Of a stretch of 39,276 nucleotides of DNA, positions 27,210-38,161 are shown piece after piece. Each line of letters starts with the position of its first letter. Position 1 is the first letter of the stretch. The translations under genes were made by a program, and so were the position numbers. The stretch covers positions 1 through 39,276 of the forward strand of contig LGEZ01000019.1 of NCBI GenBank assembly GCA_001508005.1, written 5' to 3'. The notes below the pieces were generated by a model that was not told where the DNA came from, ran no database searches, and was given only the letters and a program-made list of their open reading frames with translations. Origin of the DNA: Clostridia bacterium 41_269. GTDB taxonomy: Bacteria > Bacillota > DTU086.

Positions 27210-27262
27210 GTCCCTGGGACTTCGCCAGCTTCTTAAGGCCCTGTTATCAGGCCCTTTTTATT
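27188..27262 (+). terminator. Hairpin plus terminator after fetB
   Basis: GGCTCAGC and GCTGAGTCC form a stem spanning the fetB stop. Then AGGCC and GGCCT surround CTGTTATCA, followed by TTTTTATTTTTTT. The second hairpin lies within a sequence repeated at 36394-36480. Confidence 0.7.
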
Positions 27263-27327
27263 TTTTTCAAAGTAGGCGTCCTCGCCTTCCAAATTCACCC
27301 CCTCCTACCAACTTCAGCAAAACTTCA
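27241..27327. repeat. 87-base near-identical repeat, copy 1
   Basis: This block matches 36394-36480 at 86 of 87 positions. It starts inside a terminator hairpin and continues about 60 bases beyond the T-tract through CCTTCCAAATTCACC to AACTTCA. Copy 1 ends 13 bases before the MITE-like element, which is copied separately. Confidence 0.9.
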
Positions 27328-35971: not shown

Positions 35972-36031
35972 GGACTTGAATATGAAAAGCTGCGATTTTT
36001 GTGGGTACTGTTTTCTGGGGGGTGTGTGGTA

Positions 36032-36322
36032 GTGAAGCTGCTTTTTATCATTTATGACGCGGACCTTGACAATGACGTAATGGAAATGCTCGACTTGCTA
36101 GGTGTCAACAGCTTTACCAAATGGGATAGGGTGTTGGGTAAAGGGAAAAACAGTGAGCCCAAGCTGGATAACTCCGTATGGCCGGGATTTAACTGTGCTT
36201 TAGCTGTGGTGATAAGTGATGACGAGCAGGAACGTATCGTACAAGAGTTCAAGAAATTTTCCTTACGGCTTGATGGTAGGGGCTTTAGGGTCTTTGTGCT
36301 ACCGGTTTTGACAGCTTTTTAG
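36032..36322 (+). CDS. Small PII-like transporter-associated protein
   Basis: The 96-residue protein starts KLLFIIYDADLDNDVMEML, then GVNSFTKWDRVLGKG and a LAVVISDDEQERIV strand. The ferredoxin-like fold pattern and its place right after an RND pump match the PII-like family known as PG0541 transporter-associated proteins. I assign it from pattern and context only. GTG at 36032 has GGGGGG about nine bases upstream; the frame opens at 35999. It may sense a nucleotide or metal and tune the pump. Confidence 0.7.
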   Translation: MKLLFIIYDADLDNDVMEMLDLLGVNSFTKWDRVLGKGKNSEPKLDNSVWPGFNCALAVVISDDEQERIVQEFKKFSLRLDGRGFRVFVLPVLTAF

Positions 36323-36354: not shown

Positions 36355-36420
36355 AGCTGTTGACAAAACACCACAGGTCAACAGCCTCAGGGCCTGTTAT
36401 CAGGCCCTTTTTATTTTTTT
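36355..36420 (+). terminator. Hairpin plus strong terminator after the RND operon
   Basis: GCTGTTGAC and GTCAACAGC make a perfect nine-pair stem. It is followed by AGGGCCTG and CAGGCCCT, a perfect eight-pair stem around TTAT, and TTTTTATTTTTTT. The second hairpin begins the 87-base repeat copy 2. Confidence 0.85.
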
Positions 36421-36480
36421 CAAAGTACGCGTCCTCGCCTTCCAAATTCACCCCCTCCTACCAACTTCAGCAAAACTTCA
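36394..36480. repeat. 87-base near-identical repeat, copy 2
   Basis: This block matches 27241-27327 with one mismatch in AGTACGCG against AGTAGGCG. Here it lies between the terminator stem and the promoter of the ChrB-N-type regulator. There is no MITE-like element beside this copy. Confidence 0.9.
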
Positions 36481-36487
36481 AAAAATC

Positions 36488-36534
36488 TTGACGTAACCGT
36501 TGTTACATGATATTCTGTTTGTAACAATGGTTAC
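36488..36534 (+). promoter_or_regulatory. Promoter with paired GTAAC operators
   Basis: TTGACG and TATTCT are separated by 17 bases. The spacer carries GTAACCGTTGTTAC and the region after the -10 carries GTAACAATGGTTAC; the second is the complement of the first at 13 of 14 positions. Each arm is itself nearly palindromic. The sites lie on and just after the promoter, the usual arrangement for repression, and directly precede the regulator gene, so autoregulation is likely. Confidence 0.8.
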
Positions 36535-36549
36535 TTGGAGGCGGACGCC

Positions 36550-37089
36550 TTGGGAGAAAAAATAAACTGGCTGCTCATTATTTACAAGATTCCTCCAGAA
36601 CCGTCCAAACACCGGGTTGCCGTCTGGCGACGCTTAAAGGAAGCGGGAGCAATCTACCTTCAAAACTCCGTATGCATCCTGCCGGATCTTCCGGCCAGCC
36701 GCGACTTTTTCCAAACTCTCAAAGAGATGGTTGAAAAAGCGGGAGGCGAAAGTTTGGTCCTGTTGACCCAGGCAGCAGAAGATGCGGAGGAAGAAAAGAT
36801 AGTGAAGAAATTCAATGATGAACGGGATCAGGAATACGGGGAATTTCTCGAACAGGGAGCAGCGTTTCTTGCGGAGATCCGCAAGGAAACCGAAAGGAAA
36901 AACTTCTCTTTCGGGGAGCTTGAGGAAAATGAAGGGGAACTGCAGCGGCTGAAGAACTGGCTTGAAAAGATCAAACGCCGGGATTTTTTCCGTGCCCAAA
37001 AGGGAGAAAAGGCAGAAAAGATGCTCCGGGAGTGCGAAGAAGCGCTGGAATCCTTTTCAAACAGAGTTTTTGAAGCAAATGAAGGCTGA
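36550..37089 (+). CDS. ChrB N-terminal-domain regulator-like protein
   Basis: The protein of about 179 residues starts with a ChrB N-terminal domain (INWLLIIYKIPPEPSKHRVA, WRRLKEAGAIYLQNSVCILP). This domain resembles part of PaaX-type regulators. From about residue 80 on it is strongly charged and helical, probably coiled coil, and the C-terminal enzymatic part of full ChrB is missing. TTG at 36550 has GGAGG eight bases upstream; the frame also opens at 36535. It lies right behind a promoter with paired operators and is followed 43 bases later by a CaCA-type antiporter gene, which it may control. Confidence 0.75.
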   Translation: MGEKINWLLIIYKIPPEPSKHRVAVWRRLKEAGAIYLQNSVCILPDLPASRDFFQTLKEMVEKAGGESLVLLTQAAEDAEEEKIVKKFNDERDQEYGEFLEQGAAFLAEIRKETERKNFSFGELEENEGELQRLKNWLEKIKRRDFFRAQKGEKAEKMLRECEEALESFSNRVFEANEG

Positions 37090-37131
37090 TACAGCTTAAA
37101 AAAGGCGTCTTATGGAGGGGAGGGTTCTTTC

Positions 37132-37797
37132 GTGCTGACAGCACTGCAGTTTACAGGGGGATTGGCCCTGCTTATTTTTGGCGCAGAGATGTTTACCGAT
37201 GCGGCTGTGGATACCGCAAGAAAGTTAAGGGTTACAACTTTCCTTCTAGCTCTGCTGGCAGCAGGTGCCGAACCGGAGGAACTGCTGGCTTCGGTCATCG
37301 CCTCGTGGAGGGGAATGGGCGAACTGGCATTGTCCAACGCCCTAGGTACCAACATTTGCATTGTTGCCTTTGCCCTGGCGCTGGGTGCAGCAATTATGCC
37401 CATACAGGTGAACAAAAGTTCCATCAGGCACGGCATAATAGCCCTGACTGCTTCCGTTTTCCCTCTTTTCTTTCTCGCAAATTTCAAGGTTACCAGGATA
37501 GAAGGCTTATTACTAGTTGCTCTGTATTTCGTATATGTTTGGTACGCACTGACAAAAGAGAGGATTGATATTGAACTGGAGGATGTTAGTGTCAGAGAAT
37601 TAATAGGCGAGACTGCAGAACGCAAAGAAGCTGCTGTGTCCGAAAACATAATAGAAGAAAGAGAGGGAAGAGAAGAATTTGAAGAAAAAGAAGAAGAAGC
37701 AGCAGAAGGGGAATCCTTGCAGAAATCGGCTGTTCTGGTATTAGCGGGTATTGGAATAATGGGGCTGGGGGGGGAATTGGCTTGTAAGCGGTGCTGA
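37132..37797 (+). CDS. CaCA-type cation antiporter, N-terminal part (frameshifted)
   Basis: The frame encodes the first half of a Ca2+/cation antiporter. About five membrane segments surround the alpha-1 repeat (LLALLAAGAEPEELLASVI), followed by an acidic linker of about 60 residues rich in Glu and Lys. The next membrane segment begins GIGIMGLGG and then the frame runs into a run of eight G (37767-37774) and stops at CKRC. With seven G the frame continues into the second half. GTG at 37132 has GGAGGGGAGGG seven bases upstream. Confidence 0.85.
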   Translation: MLTALQFTGGLALLIFGAEMFTDAAVDTARKLRVTTFLLALLAAGAEPEELLASVIASWRGMGELALSNALGTNICIVAFALALGAAIMPIQVNKSSIRHGIIALTASVFPLFFLANFKVTRIEGLLLVALYFVYVWYALTKERIDIELEDVSVRELIGETAERKEAAVSENIIEEREGREEFEEKEEEAAEGESLQKSAVLVLAGIGIMGLGGELACKRC

Positions 37798-37834
37798 AGG
37801 AATTATCCAAAAGCTGCACTTATCCGAAGCGTTA

Positions 37835-38161
37835 GTGGGACTTACCTTCGTTTCCTTTGCCACCAGTGCAGAAATGATAGCTCTTTCAGTAATTCCCCTC
37901 TACAAAGGGCATCCAGAGATAACCCTTGGCGGCATAATTGGAAGTTACATATACAACATTCTTTTGACACTGGGCACAGCAGCAGCAGTCCACCCCATCG
38001 GGTTCAGCAAGGAAACACTGTTAGTGGATTTTCCCGTTATGGTAGTCGCCCTGGGATCTGTTCTCCTCTTTGCCAGAAAGGGACAGCTGGACCGCAGGGA
38101 GGGAATTATATTGATGCTCGGCTACTTAGTTTACATTTATTATACTTTCATATTCCGTTAA
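37835..38161 (+). CDS. CaCA-type cation antiporter, C-terminal part (frameshifted)
   Basis: This frame carries the second half of the antiporter: the coding region really resumes at about 37775 with WLVSGAEGII, and the alpha-2 repeat reads VGLTFVSFATSAEMIALSVI, followed by LGGIIGSYIYNILLTLG and three membrane segments. The first ATG or GTG inside it is not a real start. Joined to the first half it gives a protein of about 340 residues. The transported ion cannot be read; the two alpha repeats depart from the classical GTSxPE motif (AGAEPEE and ATSAEM), so it may not be calcium. Confidence 0.82.
   Translation: MGLTFVSFATSAEMIALSVIPLYKGHPEITLGGIIGSYIYNILLTLGTAAAVHPIGFSKETLLVDFPVMVVALGSVLLFARKGQLDRREGIILMLGYLVYIYYTFIFR

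Follow-up and report, generated by a model that had tools for sequence, protein, structure and literature searches.

ChrB regulators of chromate-resistance operons, such as those of Ochrobactrum tritici TnOtChr and C. metallidurans pMOL28, are among the closest known counterparts of the regulator considered here. In O. tritici ChrB, residues R18 and R23 are required for DNA binding and residues R180, R187 and H229 for the response to chromate, and classical ChrB still bound a promoter that was mutated in its repeat (PMC3817168). Stand-alone ChrB_N proteins, annotated as 'Chromate resistance protein ChrB', are already known from annotation to be encoded beside transporter genes. For CaCA antiporters, the canonical ion-binding motif G-T/S-S-x-P-E in both alpha repeats is a feature of the NCX/YrbG-type branches.

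Here, a stand-alone ChrB_N gene is followed by a gene encoding a CaCA antiporter. The window, i.e., the whole stretch of DNA that was analysed, is the 39,276-nt contig LGEZ01000019.1 of Clostridia bacterium 41_269, and the features of the locus are listed in Table 1. We are fairly confident that the two genes form a self-regulated transporter operon, in which ChrB_N would repress transcription via two palindromes and a signal would relieve the repression, and that the break of the antiporter frame at a run of eight G is most likely an assembly error and not a switch. The first-pass annotation had described a regulator with ChrB_N but no ChrB_C, whose promoter bears a pair of inverted GTAAC sites and which is coupled not to ChrA but to a CaCA antiporter with altered alpha repeats, an acidic linker and a frame broken at the eight-G run; all of these were recovered, with PF01699 as the domain of the downstream gene, found in two frames.

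Table 1. Features of the ChrB_N-CaCA locus (positions in the window)
Feature	Position	Strand	Basis or context
Terminator-like hairpin and following sequence, second copy of the 92-nt repeat	36389-36480	+	
Promoter-like site, TTGACG-17-TATTCT with TG before the -10	36488-36516	+	sequence match
Operator site 1, GTAACCGTTGTTAC	36493-36506	.	inside the 17-nt -35/-10 spacer
Operator site 2, GTAACAATGGTTAC	36521-36534	.	begins 4 nt past the -10
Stand-alone ChrB_N regulator, 179 aa	36550-37089	+	PF20229, E=3.6e-45
CaCA N-terminal half, alpha-1 repeat and acidic linker	37132-37797	+	PF01699, E=5.7e-20
G8 run, change of antiporter frame	37767-37774	+	sequence
CaCA C-terminal half, alpha-2 repeat, another frame	37775-38161	+	PF01699, E=1e-17

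The antiporter resembles NCX_Mj and YrbG-type proteins in having two PF01699 alpha repeats, each half exceeding the gathering score, and differs from them in its long acidic linker and in its repeat motifs, which read GAEPEE and ATSAEM where the canonical motif (GTSLPE) is expected. Both repeats retain PE in the other CaCA proteins that were sampled from the phylum. One close relative was found in the searched genomes, an intact protein of 328 aa (L070) in a genome with an estimated contamination of 7% (G112), and none was found in plasmids or in viral contigs. This relative is 55% identical to the window antiporter over the first half, shares its GAEPEE and ATSAEM motifs and also has an acidic linker, and its locus contains neither ChrB_N nor the operator. 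It aligns to NCX_Mj with E=3e-29. In the comparison with NCX_Mj, for which the alpha-2 part past residue 218 was aligned by eye, Thr50, Ser51, Asn81 (to Ile/Val), Glu213 and Asp240 (to Asn) are changed and Glu54 is kept; the residue roles are those generally known for NCX_Mj. Because these aligned residues are changed, the ion carried by the window antiporter may differ from that of NCX_Mj.

The frame that opens at 37132 stops at 37797, 23 nt past the G run, and the remainder of the protein is encoded in a different frame, which runs to 38161. This break would be expected if the antiporter had been acquired or was dispensable and were now decaying as a pseudogene, and the absence of both ChrB_N and this CaCA from the genomes sampled in its genus and family is consistent with such a history. 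However, the conserved frame contains no stop from the break to the natural end of the CaCA protein, and there, just as before the break, most changes affect the third position of codons, a pattern that a very recent break would also leave. Relative to the G112 protein, changes beyond the break amount to 0.66 at third and 0.22 at second positions, and the amino acid identity is 54%, compared in this analysis with 51% in the first half. Since conservation does not drop past the break, the antiporter gene, judged from this comparison, is not long dead, and we regard decay as unlikely.

The window regulator covers the ChrB_N domain in full (PF20229 profile positions 1-157 of 159), and in Pfam searches no ChrB_C match was found in or beside the protein of 179-184 aa and no helix-turn-helix domain within it. 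The length depends on the start codon: the listed open reading frame begins at TTG 36535, and TTG 36550 appears the likelier start because a Shine-Dalgarno-like GGAGG lies at 36537-36541, and with this start operator site 2 therefore falls in the leader. Sequence searches found no solved ChrB_N structure. AlphaFold models of six ChrB_N sequences from the window and other loci (mean pLDDT 91.8) predicted a beta-alpha-beta-beta-alpha-beta domain followed by three long helices, for which the best PDB neighbours in Foldseek were Cas2 and E. coli PaaX (probability 0.99-1.00, E near 0.01). The predicted Cas2-like domain with helices and a weak PaaX_M match resemble PaaX, whereas ChrB_N lacks the N-terminal winged helix and the sequence similarity is marginal.

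Compared with classical ChrB, the window regulator shares the ChrB_N domain, the position of a transporter gene just 3' of the regulator gene and a palindrome near the start codon, but the identity is low (~27% in plasmid ChrB matches). The part that holds R180, R187 and H229 in O. tritici ChrB is absent. Furthermore, the downstream gene belongs to PF01699 and chrA is not in the operon, which places the regulator outside the classical chromate sensors. Two arginines, R22 and R27 in the 179-aa form, are invariant in the aligned stand-alone ChrB_N proteins and have the same spacing as R18 and R23, which suggests that they correspond to those two residues.

Both operator sites of the window are exact matches to GTAAC-N4-GTTAC, the arms are palindromic within each site, the reverse complement of site 2 equals site 1 at 13 of 14 bases, and the distance from centre to centre is 28 bp. 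The promoter-like site in which site 1 is embedded is of a kind expected about twice by chance in that stretch. The operator pair at the ChrB_N promoter is not a chance occurrence: the 1.67-Mb genome has only two further exact matches, one within an fmt-like gene and the other without promoter-like context, and the reversed pattern, used as a control, yields one per strand.

The first-pass annotation had also called for a search for ChrB_N-CaCA pairs with GTAAC sites, and its two parts fared differently. The operator is conserved, as the exact GTAAC-N4-GTTAC was found within 200 nt upstream in 22 of 52 distinct ChrB_N loci of the phylum, which are mutually related, so that these counts do not represent independent events. 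The spacer was 4 in all 22, and no other length in the range 0-12 occurred. A further 14 of the 52 matched 9 of the 10 fixed bases, a level reached by 14 of 2600 shuffled sequences, none of which (0/2600) reached 10. The remaining 16 had no site with at least 9 matches within 200 nt upstream, a scan in which wrong start calls may have misplaced some upstream stretches. Paired sites 28-31 bp apart, including sites with one mismatch, were found in six other loci (L015 and L044 counted as one), and the TTGACGTAAC...GTTACATG arrangement of the window is similar in L015/L044, L018 and L048. In Proteobacteria and Actinomycetota, too, the GTAAC motif precedes stand-alone ChrB_N genes. Outside the set of 52, exact sites were found in Cereibacter, Neotabrizicola and Pantoea, and sites matching 9 of 10 bases in Phyllobacterium, Roseibium, Rhodococcus, Mycobacterium, Priestia and the mcr-5 cassette. 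Thus, by sequence, the candidate operator is broadly conserved and more general than was first proposed. No paper naming a GTAAC operator for ChrB was found in a literature search that misses most subscription journals. The motif provides a testable candidate operator for a widespread regulator type that is almost unstudied.

A related palindrome precedes the classical genes. Three classical ChrB genes located before chromate transporters have TGTAGAGATCTCTACA (C. metallidurans) or similar GTAG/CTAC palindromes, and the window motif TGTAAC-N4-GTTACA differs from the classical TGTAGA-N4-TCTACA in its inner bases. Because the two motifs are equal in size and share the outer TGTA/TACA, classical and stand-alone ChrB may read DNA in one mode with different inner bases, and finding such a palindrome in classical chrBA operons as well points to a DNA code common to the family.

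The other part of the search, the pairing, was not repeated elsewhere: among 53 ChrB_N loci, which came from 101 and 399 genomes of this phylum, no pair of ChrB_N and CaCA was found except that of the window. In 34 of the 53, one of two MFS types lies just downstream, and the other partners were a P-type ATPase (4 loci), an acyltransferase-like protein (3) and another membrane protein (1); a separate ChrB_C gene was nearby in three. Partners on plasmids include MFS, TMEM165/GDT1, CDF and MCR-5. The window regulator is thus like the other stand-alone ChrB_N proteins in identity (roughly 35-64%), in length, in having the same operator and in having a gene directly 3' (for MFS, P-type ATPase, TMEM165/GDT1, CDF or MCR-5 in the others), and differs in its CaCA partner, so that a regulator type which is known but has been little studied gains a new partner. 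Because the regulator and the CaCA gene co-occur only here, it is their spacing of 42 nt that suggests co-regulation. Annotation assigns stand-alone ChrB_N proteins to chromate resistance, yet these proteins lack the chromate-sensing part and are encoded beside many kinds of transporters, and for these reasons the annotation is probably misleading. Among individual loci, L050, L059 and L133 have ChrB_N followed by the acyltransferase-like gene, without a transporter and with exact operator sites, and in the plasmid loci L148 and L149 the stand-alone ChrB_N gene is directly 5' of mcr-5, with a site matching 9 of 10 bases 52 nt upstream of the start.

In the mechanism that we infer, including binding, the sign of regulation, the inducer and the transported ion, the ChrB_N core, consisting of the Cas2-like domain and the helical part common with PaaX and lacking the ChrB_C sensor part, would bind both palindromes. 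With site 1 between the -35 and -10 elements and site 2 covering the point where transcription is expected to begin, RNA polymerase would be blocked. A signal, probably the ion removed by the transporter of the operon, would relieve the repression, and the regulator and antiporter genes would then be transcribed together, resulting in expulsion of the ion. Alternatively, ChrB_N could be an activator or a dual regulator, as might be suggested by the O. tritici promoter with a changed repeat, for which expression was low with or without chromate (PMC3817168). However, expression was higher without chrB in the same study (PMC3817168), and the location of site 1 in a spacer of the normal 17 nt and of site 2 over the start region suits steric repression, and activation or dual regulation is unlikely. 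As an extension of the repression model, it is conceivable, but on balance doubtful, that a CaCA clade of their own comprises the window antiporter and the G112 protein, in which the rebuilt ion site (GAEPEE/ATSAEM, with Asp240 replaced by Asn) carries another ion that is sensed by the ChrB_N repressor through a GTAAC operator common to partner-swapping metal-efflux operons.

The G run in the antiporter gene is one of many in this genome, in which the runs of G7-G10 were checked and which contains 25 G runs of length seven and 11 of greater length. At nine of them, including that at 37767, the open reading frame stops and the remaining protein resumes in another frame; the genes involved encode phosphofructokinase, CcdA, a PAS protein, a SpoIVB peptidase, two histidine kinases, an XRE-cupin regulator, an MFS transporter and the window antiporter. 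The resumption was established by Pfam for four other genes, with profiles divided at G7 or G9 runs (PFK 1-257 then 255-277, SpoIVB peptidase 2-67 then 66-210, HATPase_c 2-65 then 70-109, and DsbD_TM 4-75 then 124-186), and was judged from translations for the remaining ones. Some long G runs lie in frame, for instance a G9 run in a flavodoxin-like gene. Since runs of G7-G9 split unrelated genes of the same genome, the G8 run of the antiporter gene is not a special contingency locus, and the break is most likely a homopolymer consensus error of the assembly, or at most an unselected recent slippage. The slippage switch that had been proposed at first, which would make the antiporter a phase-variable contingency gene, is highly improbable: the run is located mid-gene and the conserved remainder is open in another frame, but frame-breaking repeats are not confined to contingency loci here, as housekeeping genes are also split, runs of eight or more G are no commoner than in many relatives, where G8 counts are comparable, and the G112 relative has no G run at the matching position. 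Long G runs of this assembly should therefore not be taken as switches, and such breaks are doubtful in annotation.

Several minor observations were made on the assembly and on the surroundings of the locus. The other split genes are L094, L084, L086, L103, L099, L111, L119 and L121. A loss of mismatch repair as the cause of the breaks was considered and is not evident; a MutS_I domain is present, in a gene that appears to reach a contig end. The contig starts with 89 consecutive A (1-89), which is probably an assembly artefact. The 92-nt sequence upstream of the promoter-like site is a direct repeat of 27236-27327 (98% identical) that ends 7 nt before the -35 element, and a DNA search of the genome found no third copy. 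Adjoining the first copy, the segment 27341-27610 is flanked by inverted agtttcgttcac and gtgaacgaaact and is possibly a remnant of an insertion sequence. In addition, a P-II-like protein of the PG0541 family is encoded at 35999-36322 (NF045581, E=4.6e-26), immediately after an RND efflux gene.
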